Part shown: positions 31,001 through 53,378 of the stretch, piece after piece | Layout of the letters: each line of letters opens with the position of its first letter | How positions within the stretch are numbered: the first letter of the stretch is position 1 | DNA from: a virus | Reading direction: 5' to 3' (one strand) | IMG/VR virus record: IMGVR_UViG_3300033993_001200 | Span: 1-64,000 of that record | DNA length: 64,000 nucleotides | Position numbers and translations under genes: made by a program | The notes under the pieces: generated by a model | Databases searched by the model: none | Told to the model about the DNA's origin: nothing | The model's input: only the letters and a program-made list of their open reading frames with translations

Positions 31001-34000
31001 AACTTTAGCTAAACAATTATTACCTGCCATTAACCCAACTACTAGTATTACAGTAGATAATATTAAAACAAGAGGTAAATATAAAAGAGCTGAAAATGCT
31101 ATAACTATTAGTGCTAGTCAAGCTAAAAATGCTACTGATACTGAATTAGCAAGAACTATTCTTAAAGAGTTAATGCATTCTATTACTGATAATGAACTTG
31201 GTAAACATGTATATAGAAGCTCAGGAGATAATAAATACTATTTAAAATCAAGTGATGCACCTAAGCATATTTCAGTACTCATTAATTTATTCAACCAAGT
31301 ATCTAAAATACCTGAGTTTGAAAATGCAATAGAGTCTATTAAAAAGAAATTAGCAATAGAGGGGCAAGAGCAAGCACTTACACCAGAAGAAAATAGAATT
31401 TATTATGGTGCCTATGATGTATATGAGTTTGTTGAAATGATGATGACTCAACCTGAGTTTCAACAAGAGATGGCTAAGATTAAAACTGGTAATGGTAAAT
31501 CAGTATTAGACTTATTTAAAAACTTCTTAAATACTTTATTTAAAAATTTAGGAATACAATTTGAAACAGGTACTGTTGCTTCAGAAGCTATTGAAAATAT
31601 ATTAATCCTTGTTGATGAAAAAGGTAGACTTAAACAACAACCTACTCAAACTCAACTTATTGCAAGTACTCAAACTGAATCTAATTTATTTTCAAAAGAT
31701 GAAATAGATGCTATAAAAGGAAATTATTTAAATGCTGATGATTTAAGTATTGAGCAATTAAAAACTGTAGGTTCACCTTTAAGTTTAAAATTAGCAAAAT
31801 TAAAAGAAGATATAAAATCTGCTTCACCATTTAATAAAGCAGATATGAAATTAAAAGCAATGGATTTTTTAATTAATAATGAAGAAAAATTAATTAAAGA
31901 ATTACAAATCTTTATACAACAAACTCCTGAAGTTAAACCTACTACAACATCTAGTTTACCTGGACCAGAAACTAAAATTAATATTTATGCAGGTACAAGA
32001 GAAAATGCTGAGTTAAGTAATTTTGCTATTAGACCTTTTACTATAGATTATGCAAGAATAGGAGAATATGGCTTAGGTAAAATAAAATTTCAATCGGTAG
32101 AACAAGCTTTTCAATATATTAAATTTGAAGATTTACCTTATACTGAAGAAAATGTAAAAACTGCTAATGAAATTCTTAAAACTGTTGATGGAGCAAAATT
32201 AAGACAACTAGGTAAACAGTTTAAAGGATTAAATAAAAGTTCTTGGGACAATATTTCATCTCCTATGATGAAACAATTAATTCAAAGGTCTTTTGAACAA
32301 AATCCTGATGCTCTTCAAAAACTTCTTGCTACAGGTAATGCTACTCTTACTCATAAAAGTCCTTATAAAGATGACAAATGGACTACAGAGTTTCCTAAAC
32401 TACTTATGGAAGTAAGAGAAGAACTTAAAGGTCAACAACCTACTACAACTACTCAACCTAGTACTCAAGAAATACAGATGCCTAAACCTACAGGTGTTTT
32501 TACAGAAAGATTAAATGAAATTAGAAAAATATATAGCGGTAATAAATCTTATATAAACACTAATGTTAGTGGTGCAGAAGCTTGGGAACAAATAAATGCA
32601 CAGCAAGGAAATGTTAAACCAGAAGATATTTATAATATTAAAGATGAAATAGGAGGTAATTTGTTTGAATATTTTAATAGAGCATATCAATATATAACAG
32701 GAAATAAATTAGTACAAGATAAAAATTTTGTAATACCAATAAATCAATCTTCTAAATCTACTACAACTACTCAACCTATTGTTACTCAAGAAGTTAGTAA
32801 ATCTGATTTAGAAAAATTAAAACAAACTCCTGAAGGTAAAAAAATAGAAAAAGAAAGACAAGAAGAATTAAAACCTTATTTAGTAACATCTATTGATGAT
32901 AAGATTAATATTATAAATGAAAATCTTGGAAAAATGGGATTTGCAGGCTTAGCTAATTCGCCATCCATTATTTTTACATTTAATGAAAGAGAACCTTCTA
33001 CAAGTTTTTTACAAAAACCTATAACAAAAGAAGGAAGTAATTATCGAATAATTACAAGTAGATATAATGTACTTGTAGATAAAGATTTTAATATTATTAG
33101 TACAACAAATGTTGATACAGGAAAAACTTATAAATATAAAGAATCTGAAATAGGAAATTCAATAGTTGAAATAGGAAGAGTTCCTGATAATTTTAAAGTA
33201 TCTCAATTAATAGAGCAACTATTTAATGAGAATACTGCTTATAAACAAAACAAACAAGAAGAAATTAATAAAAAATATGATGAAGAATTAATTGCTGAAT
33301 ATAGAAAACAAGAAGTCAAACCTACACCTACTGTATCTAATTCTATTAAGAATGATTTGTTGAATATCCTTGAAGATATAAAAAGAGAAACTGATGATGA
33401 AAGTTTAAATGATAACTTAGAGTTTCCTGTTGTAAATGCAAGTGAGTTTTCAGGTTACCCTAATATTCAAAAATATCTTAATACTGAATATGGTATAGAA
33501 CAAAGAGAATATGAATTTTTTAAGTTACATAAAGATGTAGTAGAAGATTTGTTATCAAGTATGAAAGAAGTTAATCCTACTAACTTACTTGAAAAACTTA
33601 AATCTGTAACTGATACTAATGATACAGGAGTTGACTCTAATATTAAACCTATTATTACTTCTGATACTAAAAAGGACCAAGAATTAATTAAAAAAGCTAA
33701 TGAACAAATAAAGAATACTAAGTATGAATTATTTCCTGGTGTAGGTGCTAATGTAAAACAAACAGAAGCATTAGATAAATTAACAGATTTCTTAAAAGCA
33801 CCAATAGATAAATCAGAAAAAACTCAATCTACTTTTGTATTAGTAGGTAGAGGTGGTACTGGTAAAACTACTATTGTTAAAAAGATTGTAGATGAATTTC
33901 CTGGTAGTAAAGTAGTAGGTGGTGCTATATCTCATACTGCTAAAAATAATTTGCAAAAATCATTAAGAGGTAAAACAGTAAGGACTATTGCTTCATTGAC

Positions 34001-35768
34001 AGGCATAGGAGTATTTGATGATTTAAATGATTTTAAAGATACAACATTGTCAAGAGCTGATATTATCATTATAGATGAATGTTCTATGATTGATACAGCT
34101 ACTATGAATAGAATTTATCAATTAGCTAATCCTAATGCTAAAATTATATTCATGGGTGATAATGTACAGTTACCACCTATTGAAAAAAATACTAAAGAAT
34201 CTCCTACTTTTAATGCAGCTACTAAACCAGAAAATAATGCTAAGTTAACTAAAAGAATGCGTCAAGGTGAAGATTCTCCTATTGTACCTTTATCTGATAT
34301 TGTAGCAGAAAATATTGAAAGGTCTGAAAAAGAAATAGAAAGAAAAGTTATTAAAAGAAGAGATAGTAACTTTAATCCTGTAACTAATAAAGGTGTAATC
34401 TTTACAGATAACAATGCTGAACTAATGAGTAATCTTGAAAGAGATTTTAAAGCTGATGTTCAAAACACTAAGATTATAACTTACACTAATGATGAAGGTA
34501 AAACTGGTAATCCTGGTAATAAAAAAGAAATGAATGGAGTAGTAAGAAAAATACTATGGGGTGCAGATGCTAAAAATGAATACAATGTAGGAGAAATATT
34601 AGTAGCTGATAATATTATTTATGATGCAAATATTCTTAATGGTGAATATTATGAAGTTCAAGGGATTAAACCAATAAATGATGCAGTTAGTATTACTGCT
34701 GTTGAATTAATTCCAGGAAAAGGTATAGTTACTAATCAAAAAAAGTTTCCTGGTTATTCTTTAAAAGTAAAAGTAATTTCTGAAACTGATAACTTTAATA
34801 AAATAATAACTTTAAATTTGCCTTCTGCTGATTCAAAACAAAAAATAGATGAAATTCAAGAAGGTTTAAAAACAGCTAATAAATCATTATTTTATCAAAA
34901 TAAAAAAATAATACCTGATGTTAATTATGGTTATGCTATAACTTCTCATAAAGCTCAAGGTTCTACTTTTAACAATACTTATGTAATGGAGGATAATATT
35001 ATTAACTCAGGGATGAGTAATAAAGAAGCTAATCAAGCATTATATGTAGCAATGACAAGACCAAGAAATAAATTGGTAATGTTCTCTGAATTAAAAGAAG
35101 GTGAGTTTTTAACTGAGAAGCAAAAGGAAAATATGGTTCCTACTGGTGAATCATTACAACCTGAAGAAATAAAATTAGGAGTAGAAGAACTATTTAATTC
35201 TAATTCTGAATTATCTTCTATTGGAACTCCTCAACAATACTCTCAATACTTAAATACTATATTTCCTGATAGTCAAGTAAAAGATATTGTTTATCATGGC
35301 ACATTAAATAAGTTTGAATTTTTTGATAAGTCAAATCTTGGAATAAACACTTTTAAAGATAGACCTAAAGGATTTTATTTTACTAGAAAGAATGTAGCTG
35401 AATATCTTTATGGTACTTTTAAGCAGATATCGCAAGAAACAGGAAAAGAAGAATTTGTAAAAGGTAATTTAATTAGTGCAGTTATTAATACTAAAGAACA
35501 ATATCAATTAGTCCAAGAAAAAGATGATATTAGCGGTTATGGAGATTTTGTTGAATATGAATCTCATGTAGTATTTGAACCAGAACAAATACATATATTA
35601 GGAAGTAAAGATGATATAAAAGGATTTAAAGAGTTTGTAGAAAAGCAATCTACTCAAGAAGTAAAAGAAAAAGTTCAAGAAACTAAAAAAAATACAGTAT
35701 CTTCAGCAATTGAAAATCAAATTGAAGAACTTATCAAAAAAGGTATTATTAAATCTAAATGTGATTAA
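16095..35768 (+). CDS. Giant virion RNA polymerase polyprotein (6557 aa): RNAP, NADAR, SF1 helicase, ART
   Basis: One uninterrupted 19.7-kb reading frame. Visible parts in order: an N-terminal region (about 1-470) with hydrophobic Gly/Ala-rich stretches near 98-116, 205-235 and 425-450; a long coiled-coil and linker-rich region (470-1950) with small inserted domains; an RNA polymerase region with the DFDVD motif at about 4137-4141, the metal-binding signature of the two-barrel polymerases of crAss-like phages and YonO; a metallopeptidase-like segment near 5024 with KELMH instead of HExxH; a NADAR domain at about 5295-5440; an SF1 RecD/Dda-like helicase (Walker A GRGGTGKT at 5918, DE at 5994, SHKAQGSTF at 6284); and a C-terminal ADP-ribosyltransferase-like domain (about 6395-6520). 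The virion polymerase of crAss-like phages enters the cell to transcribe early genes; the other domains fit the polyvalent proteins of phages and may protect or modify host and phage molecules. Whether it is cleaved is unknown. Confidence 0.85.
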   Translation: MCPYPDDNSIVNQNTNPVVPLTDEQFAARYKEGSLPGQELNFPEGRFTNSGETFSEITSGSTSAFDDVYEQRMKELEKEVVKEDYDNLLTGGGKLAGQLLYNVAAMVGDFVGLVTDPGDIRLPTLGGTADFLTGLFGYKTDVGAYTDYFDPFATANEVFKAIDNYTFWGDGEDETGNMWTRDAQSLRDKSQHFFQINTSNDYFDVAANFTIPIIGSVLGAARTGQFTAAAGQIAGLSKGANAMMNSFIMTESTGLSIAQGVHNEVYREVLNKLSNGELQKLEDKAYSEAFDKAVADGYNKKDAEWLGIQATKQARTDFATANPELGKEASKNAGKGADVALKSMAPSFALNMITGNMYTRSLYSPKNILSKPKWIQPIDVLKEIRNEVLEESGIEQIAEKAGIAYGTKGTYNFEDLKNTIVSYDALYSGIGAIIGGGGGAVFSSLPYIGDFNERKKQYDEQQEVLVKQNRIGNSAGLKDMIDNATTLTMDLGQVVRLGKEAAILEQLGMKEEANMIKDKMLSIQAHEAFKSGTTKNLIENYEKIASNPNAGPEVQLKAREAVAEIKQMGEIYEKTKDKYINDQEVYSNKINEHNLNKVERQLETEIIQKKLEADIAIKLELESGRTSLTSGEETIIDNETGNVVTQPSQLNYNVANLKVNPYVGVDKDAEVYRNFSEYVTNNVQAVRELNELEQRLGNVKQFKKDNFERYNKITSKAYQKSLRYEQKLARVFDAGEKELEELKGTNQYMPLVDAIMEKYKGKIDEQQFKSIRKYYENQNNTKKVAEDIAKEEIKKNEFAKSETEETEVTPTDETSAVKPEGSKAMLENIARKLSSGEARSIKKLTKEEQDFYMNNQSLVDKRTSELKNEIDSQSQTEITEDEELSQELQNVSNEVSSELDGILGSKEEETESKPLSNTEVKNALQTPQQILDNKIQALENEKQILENKKEEEIKNLPKQNEVLAKGLKDFNLTTFDEQVKFFEDAIERRKKEIKELQERIKKDKDIITDYALNVLYSKLSRAVDGLNTNQKNLDALLAETKINEKYDKQIETLNAQISELKSEPISKGEVKDVLGTSSSAITALEEERKQAHLEVEEMGIEGSGHRTKSAAHAYIDKMYDEKRKQLETKTSTSQESNAEAIAELKRKQQEEIDKNAQNIIVKKEQITWKDDEGKNRKVLITHYADGKRVVEFMDEDGTVTHKERIQKDREIEFAIGAFNYNTNEKLTVQKEDIVFKSTLLDKINAKYNAQITVLEGKPVSQETNVAQEIEKFINRVIPNQEKRLLNAQEIASNGKTFNEAIDNLIKKSENARNKANERLKKEAAKEGVKPLDIQERLAEYKETKEADRYDYLIEQINEVYAVETENFNNSTQEAIDYEQGQLDIANKRLSTLESQPTEVKPDIILSGLAGGFKGVSKNSFDVRNSTEVMNNVNSGKSFSEIVEYKGKKYVVVGLRLDTARFSTTVGRDNYSFAVAELNENTPNNIVEILETSAKENFKNIYSDFNNNDVIRPITEQNKELSALKSKPTVEQKQTKAVKPLNFVISGIGGIGRGGFRVWKSQNYNVEAGGNEAQDNRSKQEVSELTNPTDKTRLIGRFYSVDQGDKVTYYANTNEVAFDNEFKRLTDAVNRGASVQVSVTVNKSDNVNEADIQKALLEKLTQVVEVSVDKNTFKANPQADFSGISLNEINPTKQQEQVTLSQKEQEILNSFKDNKASKPLLNRKFAANKSEIESLLAKGIIKEDGNNYVIAGREAQEVTLTVQKTKAEQVADNLLAKQFTRNAEGTYNLQINLKALSPEEKADIEDAVKVIKERIKNNQLDGWEINKVSNPLFEVVTITKPNLTSNQPMEEGDVSYQPDEIPTLTKEQEEKIKDLIESYVNTMEIDNNKFPTFEELVKSYIRTVGKEKAEKHLKLLGTGWELNGYGTISDYNAILRKLFGKREDIALGISAMSEELSQSVAAPEEVEVKQDELIKKEEIKDSAEPIDVTPDKQVVYSTETDIVSDTSPKLGYSVFDFSISQKVRGKDGKIIVTTDTINEGLKKKQDGLVKAIKTANFENVKVGAKLTVSVNPLNELNRVKSWVIPARVEDKNSPLYGTDVLENGKVKTIKFGEWLDQKVKESGLPVEEFMETQEFWDRVPILVSDEQGDFIAQVHDIGWYTPAKFNGDIKEAKRNVNEIRKLIKEAFKRGENSVFEITNITGGKTDGLKLTELVPLKKANPQAMMGLIVKDKDGNFQTFIYENGKRKEVKVENLSVITGAEQNKTKSMMKVDIRRWGTDADGKPTYKAFYSTSPKLSASQVNTVKNIIYSKLIVANNNLSTSQNNKFGKLLNAINSTIGSDITNNESFTDLLKRFVFISPVKNVSQEYRQGLINKVNEGNISEVENTLATSYFKNINKLEPGQTTILSLAPDILVVAKNGSNGIEVKIINKNTIPVENNEIVNNQEFLQRDALLQEALQNSLLNGYAQVGNYKQPVIQVNNDFTLTTVANNYPEFVQNNVLTNLMSVNVGTNDKPVYATRLQSNIYYKPVGTAPGKSVSRKEGQTMVSDSKVTEKDKQAITNVVESTSDEAFEEAVEGVEQDGFELFGDTVEEKAEDLKEVVKQMSNESKEIVENHLEAGPNLDNISEYNEFLNQASNKVKWVNEYFNEDNTESAESLESNQPREIGEEDVEDMAINLLRINGVSSRHQSQLANYASVKLGDILSTKEINQQEVRDKVVEDITNTLNANKESLQETLAQLKSIPQYQDRPKVMELVVKYETALNKINLVLDNIDVIYKQSVAIALKDLNGKVIENDEIEVGDDPNDNDLDNQENEEDVDDELSEEEDRHLGTENYSKTSLEVNPKASITSTLRRFMRGIPDISPTTGLPKSGAMGVTTYVDFDTVYDVVQSLLADAPVDFNMMMDILEVNKNKQPWLPILINKLKESSSEVKNQFTTTMGKHALTMEFLMYSFDKEGNATFKIVNTNLSSINRKIKDEWSNNLTSSNVLIDEYGNVSRDTVDELLNEYNSWMKTPSVLSSVHQRFIKERLKLGETSFNADENNKTLNISVELAQQKTNSKITNIDGKEYLVSIGSDDVVYVTPYERNIVSKALVDYASLTPAESKEAIEKIKDWFDAFGIELTDNAIDGLFKNPKVSASQFFEQSNNFAVGSLVKWLDTTRKAFSQDKEVTITEGSKNNPLDNSAVSDLAYHQSKYSSGIVTSSFRDGKKSIYGFTAFKFITDRANEIKNKPEFRDNLRKLSFSKNSFWLQLFEDGIDLPVYNFKERFNVTHLGLTALKEFAKKLYRDNGITSLGDVDHELVKVGMHQADQGALSKPFTVFGQQISLRNITALFPTMSDKSTMTLVKTLGLNLTDKKYFDKTENGKLVPNKSIAEFIFEQTVLPEIERVINFNAKNPNGTDIKNYDKGAKMLLLMPHLNDLVIFEKDGKKITLNEAINTKNAKLQKVLSKKDVILAEVQNYVSALVEEKMKVWAANGYYTVEEKDGKTKVTNNLLDKKYMEGVVADSQLEKIELAAMDFEINQMLSNANAFMTMIGDPAIYYKADSSKSFIQQSKETFTNVGKRLALMIAPGSKLADSETEQYTQVMLEDRVAMSENISFLTEVLDNKKFDWKEYNRIKSLNTKSDDPVKAKELKDEQKKQFEEFYDKYPNSNGYFNIEGTDAQEYTTWQEHLHILEKLGRLNDATVSITPEEIREAKEMFANNTPYSQMSDKQKGILKKVLQPIKPVYTGQIFDEAQDVMRTVYIKSSSFPLIPQVTEGTELNKLKEALEALQKEGAGPNPSPYKYVRASYQSANKVGAKAKALNMYEDDGSIKDLKVEDLKASSLTLNRKDFKIQLDVPYKSFKKKEDTVSLGTQLTKILFGNGVMDATGFMYNGKPIDGVELEKEYTKAFIELVNYKTQQLYDELGIDIKTNKPIDVRATAAKLQNILKTEAINRGYSKQDVEALEVIIKEVNGEEDLTFKLPLWLAANANRFESLLNAVVNNRIVKLKFPGSSFVAGSEEGFKIQKDFKGVDKNKIVWTKNWNGKELQAAKYDADGNLQYAQVIAPSKFRKKDGTLIDLLERKNNKYVYVTETKQGFKLKEDMIDPELRNITAFRIPTSGHMSAAQVEIVGFLPNEQGDLMIVPKNLTKQKGLDFDVDKENTYSLWHETDENGKITVLKEGDKEKLLQNEIIKIHTAVLSNPDKEVQKKINNILSIDYAKEQAENIDSMISSSKDETYFTPLGSEYQKNKMFLGASGKIGIGAYSLDVTTHSLFEQAKAKGNQVSLNYTDIDEKGKTIANPFNMSFEGEGRTDGTLGNQQTIDGQRTIAQVLSELQNIATDNEKEQVMGRVNLNSYTLDVSKILAMLGFDKAKNGNSIQFTFLSQPIIREYVKEMDNVNSNVAKFNPNKESAVINKLLEKYGNKNYELGYDVDVQNTKNFTMDKMENQLRGEVDNDFQLAVLNRFLELKKLGLAVRTLQGAINTDSKGLGKSILDNSQKIESINNLLSNPVITNAGELLGNFIPIVKYEKGKRIKALSDAEYQSYINDGYVKFGDNLFLPTTVSGVFTARALVTATSLWDRHFPYNSKLFNSIFENLMPLISKSEASDAKKVEKKSMVIKEIKRFLNSYSASNTLFDNINAQAERERLFFDRPSTGKVSLATYIKELKKANSSLASNKLIERLELVANTQGEPSLIKFNNTSAGFYDENGLNNALLELMELNLNLPSFNNEPYTSRKLAQDLITYSYLEGGVQEATQFVKFIPLSYLNKMGFTFGLSNIDFDSMGAYSIFDINPDLLNTNSKFITQFVQHNPGILPKLDNYIPKIGDIKNISEVTEFNIEKMLNAIEYQGMTAAEFYDYYKMDAKQIEEFKIALANKVSNFSMPEFVALRKDGEYLLWKSAGNGNYVQVPVVQSGISEYDSNVQQITPLSSEIVTPQNPVKEQPLSPSSDESKVTNETRFGLGTDASLTDIVTNLANSTSIDEYLITLAKQLLPAINPTTSITVDNIKTRGKYKRAENAITISASQAKNATDTELARTILKELMHSITDNELGKHVYRSSGDNKYYLKSSDAPKHISVLINLFNQVSKIPEFENAIESIKKKLAIEGQEQALTPEENRIYYGAYDVYEFVEMMMTQPEFQQEMAKIKTGNGKSVLDLFKNFLNTLFKNLGIQFETGTVASEAIENILILVDEKGRLKQQPTQTQLIASTQTESNLFSKDEIDAIKGNYLNADDLSIEQLKTVGSPLSLKLAKLKEDIKSASPFNKADMKLKAMDFLINNEEKLIKELQIFIQQTPEVKPTTTSSLPGPETKINIYAGTRENAELSNFAIRPFTIDYARIGEYGLGKIKFQSVEQAFQYIKFEDLPYTEENVKTANEILKTVDGAKLRQLGKQFKGLNKSSWDNISSPMMKQLIQRSFEQNPDALQKLLATGNATLTHKSPYKDDKWTTEFPKLLMEVREELKGQQPTTTTQPSTQEIQMPKPTGVFTERLNEIRKIYSGNKSYINTNVSGAEAWEQINAQQGNVKPEDIYNIKDEIGGNLFEYFNRAYQYITGNKLVQDKNFVIPINQSSKSTTTTQPIVTQEVSKSDLEKLKQTPEGKKIEKERQEELKPYLVTSIDDKINIINENLGKMGFAGLANSPSIIFTFNEREPSTSFLQKPITKEGSNYRIITSRYNVLVDKDFNIISTTNVDTGKTYKYKESEIGNSIVEIGRVPDNFKVSQLIEQLFNENTAYKQNKQEEINKKYDEELIAEYRKQEVKPTPTVSNSIKNDLLNILEDIKRETDDESLNDNLEFPVVNASEFSGYPNIQKYLNTEYGIEQREYEFFKLHKDVVEDLLSSMKEVNPTNLLEKLKSVTDTNDTGVDSNIKPIITSDTKKDQELIKKANEQIKNTKYELFPGVGANVKQTEALDKLTDFLKAPIDKSEKTQSTFVLVGRGGTGKTTIVKKIVDEFPGSKVVGGAISHTAKNNLQKSLRGKTVRTIASLTGIGVFDDLNDFKDTTLSRADIIIIDECSMIDTATMNRIYQLANPNAKIIFMGDNVQLPPIEKNTKESPTFNAATKPENNAKLTKRMRQGEDSPIVPLSDIVAENIERSEKEIERKVIKRRDSNFNPVTNKGVIFTDNNAELMSNLERDFKADVQNTKIITYTNDEGKTGNPGNKKEMNGVVRKILWGADAKNEYNVGEILVADNIIYDANILNGEYYEVQGIKPINDAVSITAVELIPGKGIVTNQKKFPGYSLKVKVISETDNFNKIITLNLPSADSKQKIDEIQEGLKTANKSLFYQNKKIIPDVNYGYAITSHKAQGSTFNNTYVMEDNIINSGMSNKEANQALYVAMTRPRNKLVMFSELKEGEFLTEKQKENMVPTGESLQPEEIKLGVEELFNSNSELSSIGTPQQYSQYLNTIFPDSQVKDIVYHGTLNKFEFFDKSNLGINTFKDRPKGFYFTRKNVAEYLYGTFKQISQETGKEEFVKGNLISAVINTKEQYQLVQEKDDISGYGDFVEYESHVVFEPEQIHILGSKDDIKGFKEFVEKQSTQEVKEKVQETKKNTVSSAIENQIEELIKKGIIKSKCD
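20700..21170 (+). other. Compositionally distinct inserted module in the polyprotein
   Basis: This stretch (about residues 1536-1692) uses GAG, GGC, GTC, CCC and AGC codons far more than the flanks, where GAA and A/T-ending codons dominate. It begins with a Gly-rich motif (SGIGGIGRGGFRVW) that resembles the earlier ILSGLAGGFKGV at about residue 1405, each directly after a linker ending in Lys/Gln-Pro. It looks like a recently acquired domain cassette. No function is recognised. Confidence 0.5.
28503..28517 (+). other. RNA polymerase catalytic motif DFDVD
   Basis: These codons specify Asp-Phe-Asp-Val-Asp at about residues 4137-4141 of the polyprotein, preceded by KQKGL. The DxDxD triad in a double-psi beta-barrel holds the catalytic Mg2+ in cellular RNA polymerases and in crAss-like/YonO polymerases. 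All three aspartates are present, so the active site appears intact. Confidence 0.8.
31080..31500 (+). other. Degenerate metallopeptidase-like domain (KELMH)
   Basis: About residues 4995-5135. The segment RTILKELMHSIT has the shape of a zinc-peptidase helix, and the later AYDVYEFVEMMMTQPEFQ is typical of polyvalent-protein metallopeptidases. The first histidine of HExxH is Lys5024, so zinc binding is probably lost. Confidence 0.55.
31974..32424 (+). other. NADAR domain (YbiA-like)
   Basis: About residues 5294-5443. Recognisable features are ELSNFAIRPF, SVEQAFQYIKF, the AKLRQLGKQ helix, WDNISSPMMKQLIQRSFEQN, LLATGNATLTHKSPYKDDKW. These match the NADAR family, members of which act on ADP-ribose attached to guanine or on related riboflavin-pathway intermediates. 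T/Q-rich linkers flank it, showing it is a separate module. Confidence 0.85.
33720..35130 (+). other. SF1 helicase domain (RecD/Dda-like)
   Basis: About residues 5876-6345. Walker A GRGGTGKT, then IIIIDECSM (Walker B), GDNVQLPP (motif III), RMRQ (motif IV-like) and SHKAQGSTF with VAMTRPRNKLVMF (motifs V and VI). All helicase motifs are present. In a virion polyprotein it could help DNA entry or early transcription. Confidence 0.9.
35280..35660 (+). other. ADP-ribosyltransferase-like domain (C-terminus of polyprotein)
   Basis: About residues 6396-6522. VYHGT supplies the His, GFYFTRKNVAEYLYG the Tyr-containing NAD-binding strand, and YESHVVFEPEQIHILG the typical final strand with an acidic residue. 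This H-Y-E-like order matches ADP-ribosyltransferase domains of phage polyvalent proteins. The exact catalytic Glu is not certain. Confidence 0.75.
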
Positions 35769-43566: not shown

Positions 43567-44430
43567 TTAAAAAATGTAACGAATTTTATTCCAAGGTATT
43601 ATCTCATCATGTAGTTTTACAAAATCAGATATGTATCTATTCTTTAACTGCCATTTATATCTAATGTTTTTAGAACCATAAGATGATACTTTATCTTCTT
43701 GTACTTCAGGATTCCATAACAATTCTTCTACTTTAGGATTATGTTCTAAATTATATTCATGCATACTTTTATTATGAGTTAGCATAATACATTCTGCAAG
43801 TATATCATTTTTAATTTTATCATCCACATAGTAATCAATCTTTTTAAACAAATCTTCATATAAAAATTTAGCTCCAGGAATAATTATAATAGGACTAAAA
43901 TTAATATGAACATCATAACCTGCATAGTAGAAATCATTTATAGCTTCAATTCTTTCTGAAATTAATGAAGTGTTTGGTTCTAATATATCTGAAAGTTTTT
44001 GTGGCATTAGTGAAAATCTAATCCTAATCTTTTTATCAGGATTGTAATCTAACAACTTATCATTTACATATTTAGTTGCAAATGTACCCATTATAGGTAA
44101 ATCAGATTGAGTAAAGAAATCAAATATCTTTTCCCAATCGTGGTACTTAGCATGTAGTGCAAAATCTTCATTACAAGAAATATCATAAGTCCATAAATCT
44201 TCATGTGTTTGATTAGGTATTTTAACACCTAATCTTTGAGCATGATTATATACAGTCTGTAATATTTCATCAGTATTTGTAGCTATTGATATACCTTCAG
44301 GCTTATTTCTTCTCATATAACAATAACCACATTTAAATAAACAACCATGAATAAAAGAAGGAGTAATGTAATCACTACTCCTTCCTGATGGTTTTATATC
44401 TAATGCTTTTCTAACTGTTTGAGTTATCAT
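43567..44430 (-). CDS. Radical SAM protein, spore photoproduct lyase-like
   Basis: A 287-residue protein with the radical SAM cluster motif C30-x3-C34-x2-C37 (GCLFKCGYCYMRRN), which holds a 4Fe-4S cluster that cleaves S-adenosylmethionine. The following order of strands (TNTDEI, DISCNEDFALHAKY, MGTFATKY, RIRFSLMP, VHINFSPII) matches the spore photoproduct lyase (SPL) branch, whose founding member repairs a UV thymine lesion. A close paralog role in DNA repair or base modification is possible. It is co-directional with accessory genes and starts after a 14-base gap. The lesion or substrate in this phage cannot be told from sequence. Confidence 0.85.
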   Translation of the reverse strand: MITQTVRKALDIKPSGRSSDYITPSFIHGCLFKCGYCYMRRNKPEGISIATNTDEILQTVYNHAQRLGVKIPNQTHEDLWTYDISCNEDFALHAKYHDWEKIFDFFTQSDLPIMGTFATKYVNDKLLDYNPDKKIRIRFSLMPQKLSDILEPNTSLISERIEAINDFYYAGYDVHINFSPIIIIPGAKFLYEDLFKKIDYYVDDKIKNDILAECIMLTHNKSMHEYNLEHNPKVEELLWNPEVQEDKVSSYGSKNIRYKWQLKNRYISDFVKLHDEIIPWNKIRYIF

Positions 44431-45314: not shown

Positions 45315-45893
45315 TTAAACATCATATTTATATAATTTATACTGCTTGATTATACTAATTAAGCATTTAGCATAATGTGGAGCAGTAGCATATCCACATT
45401 TTTTAAGTTGTCTTGCCCAACACTCATAATCTCTGTTACATTTTCTACAAGGTTTATATCTTTGTAACATTAACAATTTAGAATGGTCACGATAACTCCA
45501 CCAAGCAGATTTATATACTACAAACTTATCTGTGGGAGAATCATCAGCATATATTGCATACTTTTCTTTTCTACCTTTAATCCATTTCATTCCAAAATGA
45601 TTATTGCATTTTGCTGATAAGCTACTTTGACCTGCATTAGATTCTAAAATACCTTGAGCTAAAGTAATAGATGCAGGAATACCATATAATTTTTGTTCTT
45701 TAATAGCAACTCTTTTATATTTTTCAATATATTGATTTACTAATTCTACTTTGGTAATTTTACTTTTCTTAGCTAACTCTTGTTTCTCTTTCTTAGTGAA
45801 ACCATTACCTGTTGCTGTTGCAGGATTTGCAGCTCTTTTAAAGCTAAATGAAATAAATCCTACTATAAGGATTAAAATTAATACTTTTTTCAT
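45315..45893 (-). CDS. Glucosaminidase-family peptidoglycan hydrolase (copy 2), secreted
   Basis: A 192-residue protein with a signal peptide-like N-terminus (MKKVLILILIVGFISFSF), then a FlgJ/LytG-type glucosaminidase domain: PASITLAQGILESNAGQS with the probable catalytic Glu84, CNNHFGMKW, FVVYKSAWWSYRDHSKLL, CGYATAPHYAKCL and a C-terminal YKLYKYD. It cleaves the glycan strands of peptidoglycan in the periplasm. It is a paralog of 41849-42316, with which it shares the NNHFG core and the C-terminal YKLYK motif, and four extra cysteines (CRKCNRDYEC) that may form disulfides in the periplasm. Probable lysis or wall-remodelling enzyme. Confidence 0.9.
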   Translation of the reverse strand: MKKVLILILIVGFISFSFKRAANPATATGNGFTKKEKQELAKKSKITKVELVNQYIEKYKRVAIKEQKLYGIPASITLAQGILESNAGQSSLSAKCNNHFGMKWIKGRKEKYAIYADDSPTDKFVVYKSAWWSYRDHSKLLMLQRYKPCRKCNRDYECWARQLKKCGYATAPHYAKCLISIIKQYKLYKYDV

Positions 45894-48207: not shown

Positions 48208-48682
48208 TAATAACTAGTTGTAATTTATCCTGTGATACAATGTAGGTGTCAACATACTTACTCAAAGATAAGAGATAATTCATAATTTTAGAATACTTTT
48301 TATCAGCTACATATTTCTTATCAATATATAATGCTAAACAAGAATTTCTATAATACTGATACTCTCTTAACTTGATAAAATATTGCTTCTTGTGTTTATT
48401 AACTACTTGAGCTACTATATTTAATGTTAAAGAATCAACTATAATGCCTTTAGTAATAAACAAATCTTCTTTTGGTAAATAAGCTACTTTAGGAGTAGTT
48501 GTAAAAAATGCTGTTAATACTTTATCAGTAGATGTTTTATTAGCTTTTACTAAATAAATAGTTGTGCCATTATTTCCATTAATGTTATTTGCACTACTAA
48601 AAAACTTATCTATATAAATTGTACTACCACTTACATAAGTATCATATCTTGGAAATATAACATTGAAATCATCGTGCTTCAT
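48194..48682 (-). CDS. Hypothetical protein coupled to the E1-like gene
   Basis: A 162-residue mixed protein with no recognised domain: strands at the start (FNVIFPRYDTYVSGSTIYID), then Thr-rich central part (KTSTDKVLTAFFTT) and a C-terminal helix. It overlaps the E1-like gene upstream by 14 bases and the resolvase downstream by 14 bases. It could be a further component or a substrate of the ubiquitin-like system, corresponding in place to the extra genes (E or F) of bacterial PRTRC cassettes, though I see no sequence match. Confidence 0.65.
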   Translation of the reverse strand: MKHDDFNVIFPRYDTYVSGSTIYIDKFFSSANNINGNNGTTIYLVKANKTSTDKVLTAFFTTTPKVAYLPKEDLFITKGIIVDSLTLNIVAQVVNKHKKQYFIKLREYQYYRNSCLALYIDKKYVADKKYSKIMNYLLSLSKYVDTYIVSQDKLQLVINESK

Positions 48683-49427
48683 AATTTTCAGTTAGTTTAT
48701 TGAATGGTATAATGTAATCCCACATATAAGGAATCTTGAATACATTATCATCCCACTCTGTAACATTAGAAATAATGTTTGTGACAAAACCTGTAATATG
48801 AGTAGCAATCATAGCTGCACCATGAGATACTTGTTTCATTGTACACATTAAATCTTCAACATCTGAATCTGCAAATAAATGATTATCAATATAATCCATA
48901 TGAAACTGTTGATTATCACCAGGAATACAATAAATTCTCATTTGTTCCATCAATAATCTACCATCTACAAACCAAATTTTATCTGGAGTTACAGAAGAAT
49001 ATTCATTGTTACAAACAGCAAGAAACTTTTCAAATAATAATTTTCTAGCTTCCATATTGTCAAATGCAGAAATAATTATGATTGGAGATTCTCTACTTGC
49101 ATAACCTCCTCTGGTATTAATCAAATTATATAGATTAGTTTCTTGAACAAGTTTCTCATTTCTATATGTAAATGAATAATCATTATCGTTAAATAAAGCA
49201 ATAGTATTATGCAAAGCAATAACTTTAGATTCACCTATATCCTGATGTAAAAACATTTGTCCACCAAGATTATGTTCTTCTACTAAGTCATAATCTACAC
49301 TTAATACATTAAAACCTGCTCTTGTTAAAAAGAAACTTGTCCAAGAACCTATACCACCTGCACCAAATACTAATATTCTTGCTGGCTTGTTATACCACAA
49401 TGCATCTTTGAACCTATCTTTACTCAT
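48669..49427 (-). CDS. ThiF/E1-like adenylating enzyme
   Basis: A 252-residue protein with a Rossmann-type ATP-binding loop, GAGGIGS at 22-28 (ILVFGAGGIGSW), VDYDLVEEHNLGGQ at 44-57, and ISAFDNMEAR at about 119-128, all typical of ThiF/MoeB/E1 enzymes. Cys195 in DLMCTM, then SHGAAMIATH, is a candidate for the thioester cysteine; the Cys followed by Ser and an Ala-rich helix is the PRTRC-type ThiF layout. The usual arginine in the N-L-x-R-Q motif is Gly (NLGGQ), an oddity that may affect ATP handling. It starts one base after the JAMM gene and precedes the 162-aa gene. Expected to adenylate the GG-end of the Ubl. Confidence 0.85.
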   Translation of the reverse strand: MSKDRFKDALWYNKPARILVFGAGGIGSWTSFFLTRAGFNVLSVDYDLVEEHNLGGQMFLHQDIGESKVIALHNTIALFNDNDYSFTYRNEKLVQETNLYNLINTRGGYASRESPIIIISAFDNMEARKLLFEKFLAVCNNEYSSVTPDKIWFVDGRLLMEQMRIYCIPGDNQQFHMDYIDNHLFADSDVEDLMCTMKQVSHGAAMIATHITGFVTNIISNVTEWDDNVFKIPYMWDYIIPFNKLTENYEAR

Positions 49428-49428
49428 A

Positions 49429-50493
49429 TTACAATGTGTTTTCTTCTGTTAACAATTCTATCAATTCACTCAACACAACAAATTCATCAGCACTAAATAT
49501 TAACTCCTCAATAAACTCTTCCCAAGTATCATCTAATTCAGATTTAAGAATAAATGGTTTTCCATAATACTCACCCATCCATTTCTTAAAATTAGATTTT
49601 ATAGAAGCAGCATAATCATGTAGATTAAAATCTTGAAATTGAGTTACTGAATTTTCTAAATCTTCTAATGCTTGTTCTAAATTATCATTTGGAACATCCA
49701 TACCTAATCTTAGAATTTTACAAAACAATGGTTCTGATGCATTAAACAAACTAACTCCTTCAGAAGGCATTGCACTTGTATCTTGCCACCAAGTAGCTTC
49801 ATCAAATAACTCTGTCTGAGTATATTTAGAATTAGATTTAGGTTTATAAAATTCAATCTTTGGAACAGGTTTAGGCTTGTTAATAGCTGTAAACTGATTT
49901 AAGAATGTTTCATCTACATTCCAAGTAGTTTCAGGTAGAACTATTTTACAATTATAATTACCTACATATTCATCTTCTTCTGTTGATGATAATGTAGTTA
50001 TAGAATTATCAATATTTTGAAACTCAAATGTTGTAGGTGTAACTGTTTTAATTCTAAATGCAATCTTTGCAGAAAACTCATGTCTATTATTTACAATAAT
50101 ACTTAGATAAGGCTTAATGTGTTCAGAGTTTTCTACAACTTCATCTGTATCTGTACCTGAAAAGAATGTTTTCATGTTGTGATGTGAATGAAGATGTCCT
50201 ATCTTTAAATGAAAATAATCTTTTTCCATCATATAAGATAATACTCTTTGGTCAAAAGAATACTCAGTAAATCCTGCACTACCTTTATCTAATGGAATCA
50301 TATCCTCCACTTTAATATAGACAGTTTCAGGTTTTGCAAGGTCACCTTCAATTGAATAAAATGTACAACCACTCCATTCTACTTCATTGATGTAAGAACA
50401 TAAGTATTGTATCTTTTCCCAAACTAAATGGGATAATTTTACAGGAATTATGTACTCAAAATCATACAGTTTCAACTTTTTTATATTTTTCAT
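49429..50493 (-). CDS. JAMM/JAB-domain metallopeptidase (Prok-JAB, deubiquitinase-like)
   Basis: A 354-residue protein with a complete JAMM zinc site: Glu39 (NEVEWSG), and H102-x-H104-x7-S112-x2-D115 (HLHSHHNMKTFFSGTDTDE). JAMM enzymes cut isopeptide or peptide bonds after the C-terminal Gly of ubiquitin-like proteins. The C-terminal 200 residues are a helical region rich in acidic and aromatic residues that may bind the partner. It overlaps the E2-like gene by 32 bases and sits one base from the E1-like gene. Together with these it forms the core of a PRTRC/Prok-E2_D-like set. Likely job: to process the Ubl tail and to remove Ubl from targets. Confidence 0.9.
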   Translation of the reverse strand: MKNIKKLKLYDFEYIIPVKLSHLVWEKIQYLCSYINEVEWSGCTFYSIEGDLAKPETVYIKVEDMIPLDKGSAGFTEYSFDQRVLSYMMEKDYFHLKIGHLHSHHNMKTFFSGTDTDEVVENSEHIKPYLSIIVNNRHEFSAKIAFRIKTVTPTTFEFQNIDNSITTLSSTEEDEYVGNYNCKIVLPETTWNVDETFLNQFTAINKPKPVPKIEFYKPKSNSKYTQTELFDEATWWQDTSAMPSEGVSLFNASEPLFCKILRLGMDVPNDNLEQALEDLENSVTQFQDFNLHDYAASIKSNFKKWMGEYYGKPFILKSELDDTWEEFIEELIFSADEFVVLSELIELLTEENTL

Positions 50494-51685
50494 TTGCTAA
50501 ATAATTTAGAATTTTATTATAATAATGATTTTCATTCAACTTGTTATAAATATAACAAAGTGCTGGTTTAGTAATTTTAACTTCAAAGTTATCAGTTAAT
50601 GATGCATTAGTTAATATTACAGGTCTTCTAGTTTTTTTAAATAAAACATACTTACCTTCAATTTTATATTTCAAATCTACTGAACCAAGTTTGTTTACTA
50701 CTTCTCCATTAGAATAGATAATAAAACTAAATGGATAACTTGAAAAAGAAAAACCAGCTGAAATAAGTAACCCAACTAAAATCTTTTCAAAATAATCATC
50801 TTTAAATACTAATTCATTATTAATTAAGAAAATAGCATTCTCTTTAACTAGTCCATCTATTAATAAATAAAGATACTTATTGTCAAAACTCCTAGTAATG
50901 TACTTAGTCAAATTAAACAATTCAATTACTGATGATTTAACTACTGTATTATCTGTAAGATATGACATTTTGATATATGGACCACCCTCTAATGACTCAT
51001 ACTGCAAATATGCTTTAAGATTGAGAAGAAATAAGTTAAATACATTTGGTATTTCTTCTTTATTCTTATTCAATATTTGTTCATATAACATCATCATTGA
51101 CATAGTAATATCAGTACCTGAACCTAAACAAAAATTAGTAAAACCAACTGTAGCAGAAGAAGGTAAATGAGAATGACTATAATTCTTTTCAAGTTGTAAT
51201 TCTGTAAAACTACCTCTCCTACCTAATAATCCTTTGTTATGTATATCACCTTGTTGAGTAATATGAAATTGTACATACATATCTGTTATGTGAATAGACC
51301 TATTAAGTTTATTAGTAACTTTTAATTCAGGATAATGTATTACAACAGTTAATCTAGGATAATAATGCATTATTTCAAAGTATAAATCACCATTATATGT
51401 AGTATTTATATATTCAAAATAGTTAAATGGAATTTTAGCATTAGTTTGATGATTTAAAATTCCAAAAGTATCAGATAATGCATGTACATTACAATCATAA
51501 GATAAATATATATCATAATCATATCCTTGTTTGTCTAACTCAGTTTTAATGATATTGTAAAACCAAAATATGCTTGATAAATTTTTATTTAATGTTTTGT
51601 AATACAGCAAGTTATTGATTCTGTTTAAATCTACATTACGTTTTTGATTATTTTGATTATAAAACAATGATGCTATTCCTAACAT
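50462..51685 (-). CDS. E2-like (Prok-E2/PRTRC protein B-type) protein
   Basis: A 407-residue protein. In the middle is a stretch that resembles the active-site region of E2 enzymes: HYPELKVTNK (about 117-126), MYVQFHITQQGD (about 136-147), then YSHSHLPSS and FCLGSGTD with Cys186 at the position where E2 enzymes have a Cys after a Gly/Pro-rich loop. The His residues (171, 173) before it recall the HPH(V/I) to CLG arrangement in bacterial E2-like proteins of PRTRC type. The C-terminal 190 residues are extra. It starts 15 bases after a terminator downstream of the Ubl gene and overlaps JAMM by 32 bases. The E2 call is a context-supported inference. Confidence 0.65.
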   Translation of the reverse strand: MLGIASLFYNQNNQKRNVDLNRINNLLYYKTLNKNLSSIFWFYNIIKTELDKQGYDYDIYLSYDCNVHALSDTFGILNHQTNAKIPFNYFEYINTTYNGDLYFEIMHYYPRLTVVIHYPELKVTNKLNRSIHITDMYVQFHITQQGDIHNKGLLGRRGSFTELQLEKNYSHSHLPSSATVGFTNFCLGSGTDITMSMMMLYEQILNKNKEEIPNVFNLFLLNLKAYLQYESLEGGPYIKMSYLTDNTVVKSSVIELFNLTKYITRSFDNKYLYLLIDGLVKENAIFLINNELVFKDDYFEKILVGLLISAGFSFSSYPFSFIIYSNGEVVNKLGSVDLKYKIEGKYVLFKKTRRPVILTNASLTDNFEVKITKPALCYIYNKLNENHYYNKILNYLANEKYKKVETV

Positions 51686-51700
51686 ATAGATATAAATTAA

Positions 51701-51729
51701 AAAGAGCCTGATTGTTAGTCAGGCTCTTT
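51701..51729 (-). terminator. Terminator between the Ubl candidate and the E2-like gene
   Basis: Perfect 11-bp stem (AAAGAGCCTGA/TCAGGCTCTTT) with a 7-base loop, followed on the minus strand by a U run. It separates the Ubl gene (ends 51744) from the E2-like gene (starts 51685). Confidence 0.9.
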
Positions 51730-51743
51730 AGTTAGAAAATAAT

Positions 51744-52391
51744 TTAAATCTTTCCTTTCATCTTACTAATCCACTCATTTTCTGCATCTGTAAGTAAATC
51801 TGACTTTGTATTCATAGACTCACAAATAGTAGCAGCAGATACATGACCATTAATAAGGTCAAATGCAAGTTCAAAATCATCTTTTCTTGCTTTATACTCA
51901 TTACTAAAACGTAATGTATTTATAGCAGATTCTAAAAGGTGAGATTCATCTTCTTCATCCTCATTGTCATAATTATCTTCAACATACTCTTCTTCATAAT
52001 CATCATCTTCACTTTCATTTTTCCAAGATAACAAAAGAGCTTCTAACTCATCTTTAGATTTGTTAGTGTAGTTTTTGTTACCTGCATTAAAATGCTCGTG
52101 TGCAGCTTTTTTGTCATCTTCAAATGCTTGTTTGATTTGTAGTCTTATCTCACTATAAGATAATCCACCACTCTTAGTTTTCTTAGGAGCTAGCATTAGT
52201 ACAAATTCGCCATCAGGAAGAACAGCTTCATCTAACTCTAAGTTAGAATTGTTTTTGTTCTCTACTGCTGTCATATCAGATACTGAATAACCTTTATTAG
52301 TCAATTCATTTTTAAGTTGACCCCAGTTAGTTGCATTAGAGTCTACTACTGCGATACCTGTTGCAGTAGAATAAATTTTAATTTTTCTCAT
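51744..52391 (-). CDS. Ubiquitin-like protein candidate with C-terminal tail
   Basis: A 215-residue protein. The first 76 residues fit a beta-grasp: a strand (KIKIYST), another strand after a turn (GIAVVDS), a helix (NWGQLKNELTNKG), a loop, a strand (GEFVLMLAP), then KKTKSGG ending at Gly75-Gly76. This is where ubiquitin ends with its GG. A 139-residue tail follows with a helix and a strongly acidic stretch (about 126-150). The tail would have to be cut off by a peptidase such as the neighbouring JAMM to expose the GG. It shares a transcript with primase (12-base gap) and is followed by a terminator. The Ubl call is by pattern and context; a non-Ubl DNA-replication factor is the main alternative. 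Confidence 0.6.
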   Translation of the reverse strand: MRKIKIYSTATGIAVVDSNATNWGQLKNELTNKGYSVSDMTAVENKNNSNLELDEAVLPDGEFVLMLAPKKTKSGGLSYSEIRLQIKQAFEDDKKAAHEHFNAGNKNYTNKSKDELEALLLSWKNESEDDDYEEEYVEDNYDNEDEEDESHLLESAINTLRFSNEYKARKDDFELAFDLINGHVSAATICESMNTKSDLLTDAENEWISKMKGKI

Positions 52392-52403: not shown

Positions 52404-53378
52404 TTAAAATAAAAAATTGATTAATTCTTGTTTTTTTCCTGCTTTAATAATGTCTGCAGGATCTTTTTCATCAAATGGTAATACTACACTTATAGCTTTA
52501 GAACTATAATGATTGTTAATATATTTTACTACTTTGTTAGATGCAGGTATACCAGCTTTATCATTGTCAAATAATACTATTACTTGATTAAATACTGAAA
52601 TATACATTGATAATATTGATATATCAGGTAACATACCTTCATTTTGAAAATATATAGCATCTTTACCAAGATTAGTTAACACTCTCCAATCTTTATAACT
52701 CTTAGTTATATATAATGTATCACCTACAAATGGAAGATTCTTTGTACCACCAATAGTATTTTTAGTAGTATTAGTTATCCATTTATATTCTTTAGATTTT
52801 GGCTTACATATTTTAATACCTTCACTTTTATATGAAATAGTGTAGGTAGTTTCTTGTGGAAAAGGTGTAAATATGTTTCCATTAACTTTAAACCATTTGG
52901 TAGCAAATATATTATCTGCTATAAGTTGGGAACTTGTTATCTCATATTGTGACCAATATGTTTTATGATAATCATCAAATGGCTTAGGACAAAACTCTAA
53001 CAATTTAGATGAAGATGTGGTAGATACAATGGATTGTGATTGTGATTTATAATCTACATATTCTGATTTACCTTTAAATGAATTGTTATCCATTATATAA
53101 GTTATAGCATCTTTTAATGATAAGTTATAATACTCTTGTATTATACCAATAGCATCTAAATTTACTACACCATAAGTACTTGCAAAATCAGTAAAATATA
53201 ATTTACCATTTCTCCATTGTATCCAACATCCAGGGCTATCATCAATTCTAAAAGGACTTTTTATATATACATTAGTTTCAAATTGACCAAAAACATGATT
53301 AAATATTTGTTCTTGGTTAATGTATTTAAATACATCTTCTATTGATGAAAATGTAAAATCATCTTGATAGCCATACAT
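52404..53378 (-). CDS. DNA primase-like protein with Toprim domain
   Basis: A 324-residue protein. Residues about 40-80 (VYIKSPFRIDDSPGCWIQWRNGKLYFTDFA) resemble the primase N-terminal fold but without zinc-binding cysteines. The C-terminal half has the Toprim pattern: LYITKSYKDWRVL and QVIVLFDNDKAG, with Asp residues at about 270-285 that bind Mg2+. The usual Glu in the first Toprim motif is replaced (ITKS). It should make RNA primers or join DNA at the fork, with DnaB-like helicase and PolB in the same block. It begins MYGY like its upstream neighbour. About 27 bases separate it from the SSB candidate. Confidence 0.75.
   Translation of the reverse strand: MYGYQDDFTFSSIEDVFKYINQEQIFNHVFGQFETNVYIKSPFRIDDSPGCWIQWRNGKLYFTDFASTYGVVNLDAIGIIQEYYNLSLKDAITYIMDNNSFKGKSEYVDYKSQSQSIVSTTSSSKLLEFCPKPFDDYHKTYWSQYEITSSQLIADNIFATKWFKVNGNIFTPFPQETTYTISYKSEGIKICKPKSKEYKWITNTTKNTIGGTKNLPFVGDTLYITKSYKDWRVLTNLGKDAIYFQNEGMLPDISILSMYISVFNQVIVLFDNDKAGIPASNKVVKYINNHYSSKAISVVLPFDEKDPADIIKAGKKQELINFLF

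Follow-up and report, generated by a model that had tools for sequence, protein, structure and literature searches.

A candidate ubiquitin-like conjugation pathway with a precursor tag in the replication block of a phage

Results

Four adjacent genes on the minus strand

We analysed positions 1 to 64,000 of IMG/VR virus record IMGVR_UViG_3300033993_001200 (the window). At 48669-52391 on its minus strand lie four adjacent genes for a ubiquitin-like protein (Ubl), an E2-like conjugating enzyme, a JAMM protease and a ThiF/E1-like adenylating enzyme. A sequence-only reading, made without database searches, had assigned these four functions and suggested that the phage uses them to tag proteins, its own or those of the host. 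All four open reading frames (ORFs) were found where that reading had placed them, and the motif and codon positions of the block were verified by reading the window DNA. The features are as follows, with structure models from AlphaFold2 (AF2).

51744-52391, minus strand: 215-aa Ubl protein, ORF confirmed
52164..52391, minus strand: ubiquitin-like (beta-grasp) domain, residues 1-76 of the 215-aa protein (AF2, VIA-align)
52167..52175, minus strand: K-S-G motif (residues 73-75), where the mature tag is proposed to end and JAMM to cut (conservation, free-standing relatives)
51744..52163, minus strand: largely helical extension that follows the Ubl domain, residues 77-215 plus the stop codon (AF2 secondary structure)
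50462..51685, minus strand: E2-like conjugating enzyme, 407 aa; Cys186 codon 51128-51130, H171-S-H173 codons 51167-51175
49429..50493, minus strand: JAMM/MPN+ protease, 354 aa; HxHx7SxxD at 50149-50190, Glu39 codon 50377-50379
48669..49427, minus strand: ThiF/E1-like adenylating enzyme, 252 aa; candidate thioester Cys195 codon 48843-48845
52404..53378, minus strand: DnaG-type (Toprim) primase, a conserved neighbour outside the pathway (PHROG 12622 DNA primase, 1e-46)

To place the set among other phages, viral contigs were scanned in two ways, with single sequences (the Ubl and the ThiF protein) and with alignments (JAMM and ThiF); each alignment scan contributed its best 80 relatives, of 258 in one and of 176 in the other. 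These relatives, together with 8 annotated phage regions and the window, made 171 sources, and merging the loci of one contig gave a manually compiled list of 149 distinct contigs. All four genes were present, in one order, in 120 of the 149 (115 plain and 5 with one extra fragment), so that the gene order named by the sequence-only reading recurs in other genomes. Since the contigs were found through similarity to JAMM, ThiF or Ubl, this figure describes co-occurrence given one of those proteins. The plain order primase-Ubl-E2-JAMM-ThiF was seen at 131/171 loci. Neighbouring genes overlap or almost abut, and the E2-like and JAMM ORFs overlap in 115/120 contigs; these overlaps are upper estimates because each ORF was taken from its first ATG, GTG or TTG. 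By a simple counting method with 2-5 relatives per gene, the whole-gene ratio of nonsynonymous to synonymous substitution (dN/dS) was 0.10-0.56 in all 13 comparisons. Because the order is kept, the catalytic residues are invariant (below) and dN/dS is low in this range, we regard the gene set as more than a chance arrangement.

The Ubl is predicted to be a beta-grasp domain with a conserved glycine and an extension

No function for the 215-aa and 407-aa proteins emerged from Pfam, PHROGs or NCBIfam, the PHROG matches being to families of unknown function, and a sequence-profile search of the PDB identified neither. A per-member Pfam scan of 89 Ubl sequences returned scattered matches only, among the 25 of 91 families listed. 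In an AF2 model built from 82 sequences, residues 1-70 of the 215-aa protein form a block with a predicted local distance difference test (pLDDT) score of 92-98, ordered strand-strand-helix-strand-strand and followed by a loop and then helices. The best VIA-align rows for this model were ubiquitin, UBX, DIX and other ubiquitin-like folds at Z 7.9-8.6 (top Z 8.6, ubiquitin itself 7.9-8.2), with a root-mean-square deviation (rmsd) of about 2 across about 70 residues. Foldseek likewise returned mostly ubiquitin-like folds, with ubiquitin, SUMO and NEDD8 chains at E of about 2e-3 to 7e-3; the best E was 1.3e-3, none fell at E up to 0.001, and an unrelated VP30 domain was among the 50 matches listed. 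A beta-grasp fold is thus predicted with high confidence for the first 70 residues, the point on which the Ubl assignment had been said to depend. The predicted fold is followed by a conserved glycine, the combination that marks the Ubl family.

This glycine, Gly75, lies just past the beta-grasp domain in the inter-domain linker and is the most conserved column of the protein. In alignments made non-redundant by shared 5-mers and restricted to full-length ORFs, as for all counts of residues below, it was present in 97/98 rows; the one row without it, from the detached extension of cr106_1, is gapped at this position. Ser74 was kept in 93/98. Mean conservation was 0.71 over residues 71-76, 0.48 over the folded domain and 0.35, 0.31 and 0.18 along the extension. 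That a linker glycine outranks the folded core is the pattern expected of a processed C-terminus, and more than 90 non-redundant precursor forms share this one conserved candidate processing site. Because the tag carries a C-terminal extension, a feature that the sequence-only reading had not noted, processing would be needed. Residues 1-76 are under purifying selection (dN/dS 0.11-0.35) and residues 131-215 evolve fast (0.48-1.15; 5 comparisons), with the extension keeping T109 (82/98), N107 (77/98) and L116 (75/98). A SAP/HeH-like domain had been suspected in the extension, and Pfam showed none.

In 11 sister-phage contigs a free-standing ORF of 74-95 aa encodes the Ubl alone. The number of residues between the glycine and the stop was 0 in two of these, 1 in six, and 2, 3 and 8 in one each. 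Three further candidates, chosen by eye and unaligned, end 0 (L103), 1 (L102) and 4 (L069) residues past the glycine, bringing the free-standing candidates to 14; some other sister loci end before the Ubl gene. When the free-standing and fused families were compared by hhalign, the match ran over the domain with K-S-G aligned to K-S-G (E=2.8e-5, probability 74%, with the fused-family member cr106_1 excluded; 1e-6 with it included). In cr106_1 itself an HNH endonuclease gene (L002 3688-4203) lies between the Ubl ORF and a separate extension ORF, and the Ubl ORF terminates ...KSGKF, two residues past K-S-G. An intron was considered as the cause of this split gene, and there was no Rfam match at E up to 0.1.

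The JAMM protease and the ThiF/E1-like enzyme keep their site residues

The perfect HxHx7SxxD site noted in the sequence-only reading is HSH-x7-S-x2-D at residues 102-115 of the 354-aa protein. H102, S103, H104, S112 and D115 were present in 109/109 rows and E39 in 108/109, the other row having a gap, which together supply the glutamate and the HxH-x7-S-x2-D motif of the JAMM/MPN+ proteases. The best solved relative was CSN5 (E=0.0026), and the Pfam Prok-JAB match (0.0081) was under the family cut-off.

The ThiF/E1-like assignment also held: the 252-aa protein matches Pfam ThiF at 4e-16 (59.3 bits against a cut-off of 28.1), and its best solved relatives were UBA5 (1e-13). G22, G24, D45, D47, N53, K68, D123 and C195 were invariant in 101/101 rows, covering the GxGGxGS, D, N, K and D site residues of the E1/ThiF family. 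Cys195 was also present in 12/12 more distant sequences, a few of which may overlap the 101, and hhalign places it opposite the P-S-C-S segment of PRTRC ThiF (see below), making it a candidate for the catalytic cysteine that E1 enzymes of conjugation pathways have in their crossover-loop region. The top NCBIfam model was ThiS adenylyltransferase, at 71.5 bits under a cut-off of 159.

The 407-aa protein is a likely E2

The cysteine proposed as the E2-like site, Cys186, was invariant in 105/105 rows, as were H173, G188 and E230; H171 was kept in 90/105. The AlphaFold model (mean pLDDT 80) runs helix, long strands, HxH motif, Cys186 and two helices, which is the element order of an E2. In VIA-align, E2-family chains filled rows 1-10 and 12-15 (Z 4.5-5.9), the best being Rad6, Ubc9, UBE2S, UBE2N and Ubc12 (Z 5.0-5.9); row 11 was a Mediator chain (Z 5.2, rmsd 6.2) and row 16 an RWD domain. 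A viral structure library searched with the model at E up to 0.001 returned uncharacterised proteins only (7 rows).

Sister-phage proteins at the same gene position (n=20) read HPH...C in 14 and HSH...C in 3, and 3 begin at a contig end. Their spacing is HPH-x6-7-C, whereas the window protein reads HSH with a longer gap to the cysteine. The arrangement of eukaryotic E2s is HPN...C, to which the sister motif is close, so by motif comparison the putative active-site cysteine follows an HPN-like motif as in an E2. From the model and these motifs we consider the 407-aa protein a likely E2. Support for the expected E2 (UBC) fold was moderate: E2 rows came first in VIA-align, at modest scores, and no E2 was among the Foldseek and Pfam matches listed (see Discussion).

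The set is found in phages related to crAss001 and FpV4

The primase gene precedes the four genes; after them, the PHROG scan found one unnamed 162-aa ORF and then RusA-like resolvase and exonuclease genes. With these genes flanking the set, the earlier description of a replication block was right.

Named carriers of the set are crAss001 (gp79-gp76), DAC15, four cr genomes of Steigviridae, bajarodcaudo virus 1 and FpV4, of which crAss001 and FpV4 are cultured phages. Some genes are already labelled individually in public records, as 'E1 enzyme family protein' in bajarodcaudo virus 1 and as 'metalloprotease' and 'ThiF' in crAss001. The window had been called crAss-like, and this stands in a broad sense, as its relatives include Steigviridae such as crAss001; its closest named phages, however, are Flavobacterium psychrophilum phages of the genus Fipvunavirus, whose own record gives them no place in Crassvirales. 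Among 50,697 phage records, JAMM matched 74 and ThiF 84 (E up to 0.01), the ThiF count taking in distant ThiF-like proteins of other phages, and the primase matched 101 (E up to 1e-5). In two Suoliviridae examined, the primase was present and the set was not annotated next to it; the set therefore seems to be a lineage feature rather than one of all crAss-like phages.

In 29 of the 149 contigs the four genes were not all recognised; many of these are truncated at contig ends, and several with room for the set hold a divergent free-standing Ubl candidate (L069, L074, L079, L086, L099, L102, L103). A search of genome contigs for non-phage carriers gave 56 pattern matches, of which one was a relative: the whole block on a contig (L172 3266-7246) of a metagenome-assembled genome named Clostridium, perhaps a mis-binned crAss-like phage. 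An 85,292-base IMG/VR contig encodes Ubl, JAMM and ThiF proteins 100% identical to those of the window; the window record has 65,947 bases, and both may stem from a single phage that was assembled twice.

The nearest known relative is the PRTRC cassette of plasmids

Prokaryotic Ubl conjugation is known mainly from bacterial defence systems and from plasmid or island cassettes. The sequence-only reading had likened the set to the PRTRC (ParB-Related, ThiF-Related) plasmid cassette, which carries ParB, E, C (Ubl), F or hypothetical genes, B (E2), A (JAB) and ThiF. Its order C-B-A-ThiF is the same as that of the phage genes; three other PRTRC cassettes have no A annotated between B and ThiF, and two further retrieved ones are divergent. 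The phage JAMM context, H-S-H-x5-[FY]-F-S-x-T-D, recurs in 5/7 PRTRC_A rows, the other 2 being poor homologues. PRTRC_B, in the gene position of the phage E2-like protein, has N-x7-C-x-G, and the PRTRC_C Ubl has a conserved glycine at or near its end. By hhalign, the JAMM family matched PRTRC_A at 6e-5 (probability 66%) and the ThiF profiles matched at 5e-15, with poor PRTRC homologues retained (L177 for C and A; L178 for A and ThiF) that weaken those profiles. Because of the shared four-part order, the JAMM context and the JAMM and ThiF profile matches, common descent of the phage set and PRTRC is likely. The likeness holds for gene order, JAMM and ThiF; the E2 and Ubl profiles gave no significant match.

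Several differences separate the two. The NCBIfam scores were below cut-off for PRTRC_ThiF (34.5 bits against 144.75) and PRTRC_A (13.6 against 101.8), and PRTRC_B and PRTRC_C gave no NCBIfam match at E up to 1. ParB and PRTRC_E/F had no match in 9 block and neighbour proteins (Pfam, NCBIfam) or in the further window proteins scanned, which together are part of the window genes, and within this scope the earlier statement that the set comes without ParB agrees with our scan. These three were also absent from the annotations of the blocks of 8 relatives, one block being all 'hypothetical'. With the model cut-offs unreached and ParB, E and F unseen, we did not file the phage set as PRTRC. Furthermore, the phage Ubl is fused to an extension in the window family, and the phage set sits in the replication block of phages whereas PRTRC is on plasmids. 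The Ubl of a Rhodoferax PRTRC cassette (protein C; L176 2481-2906) likewise continues for a long stretch past its conserved glycine, and plasmids may therefore also encode precursor forms. Operon type 6d of Iyer 2006 (PMC1779556) is the nearest printed description consulted, and it appears to be the same as or related to the PRTRC cassette.

CBASS Cap2/Cap3 and Bil likewise comprise prokaryotic E1, E2-like and JAB-type parts, but these are bacterial defences, while the phage set consists of separate proteins with a dedicated Ubl. Cap2 is described as an E1-E2 fusion acting on a CD-NTase (excerpt of PMC12355090). The phage E1 profile matched Cap2 more weakly (6e-5 or worse) than UBA5 (1e-13). 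Eukaryotic UBA5 (the E1 of the UFM1 pathway) and CSN5 are distant, the phage tag ends in K-S-G, and no membership of those families is implied. A phage precedent lies in the lambda-like tail assembly protein I with JAB/NlpC, for which JAB cleavage of a Ubl at glycine was proposed (PMC1779556, in part). As in the present set, a phage Ubl-like domain stands beside a JAB protease; that system belongs to tail genes and has no E1 or E2 described in the same excerpt, whereas the present one lies among replication genes.

Discussion

The gene order, the invariant active sites, the predicted tag fold and the free-standing tags ending at or near glycine were all computed here. Together they suggest that the window probably encodes a phage ubiquitin-like conjugation pathway with a precursor tag. 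The 215-aa protein would be the precursor, a 75-residue beta-grasp tag ending in K-S-G followed by a helical extension, and the conserved sites suggest that JAMM would cut it at or just past the conserved glycine. The ThiF/E1-like enzyme would then adenylate the freed glycine and take the tag as a thioester on Cys195, from where it may move to Cys186 of the E2-like protein and then pass to a target amine. JAMM could also take the tag off, making the modification reversible. Judging by gene position, our first guess for targets would be phage replication or recombination proteins, and host or defence proteins the second. A bolder proposal is a complete and autonomous viral Ubl pathway, with a tag precursor, E1, E2 and deconjugating protease of its own, that forms a core part of the replication module across a broad range of phages, cultured gut phage crAss001 among them, and during infection reversibly modifies replisome or host proteins in a SUMO-like manner; here we see the chances as about even.

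Several results weigh against a conjugation pathway, and recognition of the E2 is its weak point. No E2 was among the 50 Foldseek PDB matches listed for the 407-aa model, of which the best (E 0.15) was a non-E2; a Pfam scan of 100 E2-like members gave scattered matches, with no E2 family among the 25 of 27 families listed; and VIA-align scores of Z 5-6 fall in the range where the tool warns of a common arrangement. By hhalign, the E2-like family did not significantly match the sister E2-like group (0.016, probability 2.8%) or PRTRC_B (0.074, probability 0.8%), nor did the sister group match PRTRC_B (0.25), with a control pair, E2-like against PRTRC ThiF, at 0.76. The phage Ubl did not significantly match the PRTRC_C profile either (0.31 and 0.63). 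The arginine of the N-x-x-R-Q motif acts at the E1 ATP site. It is kept in 4/4 PRTRC sequences and never present in the phage ThiF, where position 56 is G in 90, T in 7, S in 3 and A in 1 of the 101 rows; adenylation is therefore not assured. No E3 was found, and the same parts in this conserved order could also serve some other purpose.

If the 407-aa protein were not an E2, Ubl, JAMM and ThiF would share the locus with an unrelated protein, as the missing E2 among listed Pfam and Foldseek matches and the non-significant PRTRC_B profile would allow. Against this, E2 enzymes are the 10 best VIA-align rows and an RWD domain comes at row 16, His173, Cys186 and Gly188 are invariant, the sister proteins carry HPH-x6-7-C close to HPN...C, and PRTRC_B with its N-x7-C-x-G occupies the same gene position; we think a non-E2 decidedly unlikely. 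Less probable still, and in our view improbable, is a sulfur-carrier or small-molecule pathway of ThiS/MoaD type, in which a thiocarboxylate tag would donate sulfur and JAMM would release the product with no protein conjugation. Bacterial Ubl-ThiF-JAB sets of such a kind exist (Iyer 2006, PMC1779556), ThiS adenylyltransferase is the best, sub-cut-off NCBIfam model, and the cr106_1 extension ORF has a sub-threshold NifU_N match (0.039). Yet an E2-like protein with an invariant cysteine accompanies the set in 120/149 contigs, the genes are located among replication genes, and there was no clear rhodanese or sulfur-metabolism match among the window neighbours scanned, which are part of the genes.

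Two further alternatives concern what would be tagged. The tag or JAMM might act on host anti-phage systems, for example by stripping Ubl tags placed by the host or by attaching the phage tag to defence proteins. Tagging of phage tails with Ubls by bacteria has been reported (Bil; excerpt of PMC12135933), and JAMM could reverse it; but JAMM alone would suffice to undo host tags and the four parts nonetheless stay together, in a conserved core block and not a variable accessory region, so that we find counter-defence unlikely. A single dedicated partner, such as one replisome subunit, or regulation of the extension, is possible though we lean against it. It is a narrower form of the conjugation reading and compatible with it. 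Modification of one partner has the precedent of Cap2 with its CD-NTase (PMC12355090, in part), and it would suit both the fixed primase neighbourhood (131/171 loci) and the conserved T109, N107 and L116 of the extension; on the other hand, nothing points to modification of any protein, and in the two Suoliviridae the primase has no set annotated beside it and so does not need one there.

In the open-licence literature, a scope that leaves out many journals, supplements, preprints and subscription papers, we recognised no report of a phage Ubl-E2-JAMM-ThiF set, and a term search found ThiF, ubiquitin and JAB absent from the main text of Yutin 2021 and Shkoporov 2018. If phages keep a complete conjugation pathway, viruses would run their own protein tagging inside bacteria. 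The family of crAss001 is called the most abundant in the human gut in the title of its describing paper (Shkoporov 2018). The idea is directly testable, since hosts are named for two carriers of the set, crAss001 and the Flavobacterium phage FpV4. The 14 free-standing tag candidates and more than 90 precursor forms also bear on how ubiquitin systems arose.

Other features of the window

On the plus strand, a single ORF of 6,557 aa (16095-35768) lies among ORFs of 1,565, 1,385, 850 and 1,545 aa, and the product of the 1,565-aa ORF matches a virion structural PHROG. crAss-like phages carry giant virion RNA polymerase proteins. For the product of 43567-44430 the Pfam match is to spore photoproduct lyases (6e-27), which would be a repair-like enzyme of the radical-SAM type carried by a phage. 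At 45315-45893, on the strand of the replication genes, is a glucosaminidase-domain protein (2e-32), a probable lysis enzyme.

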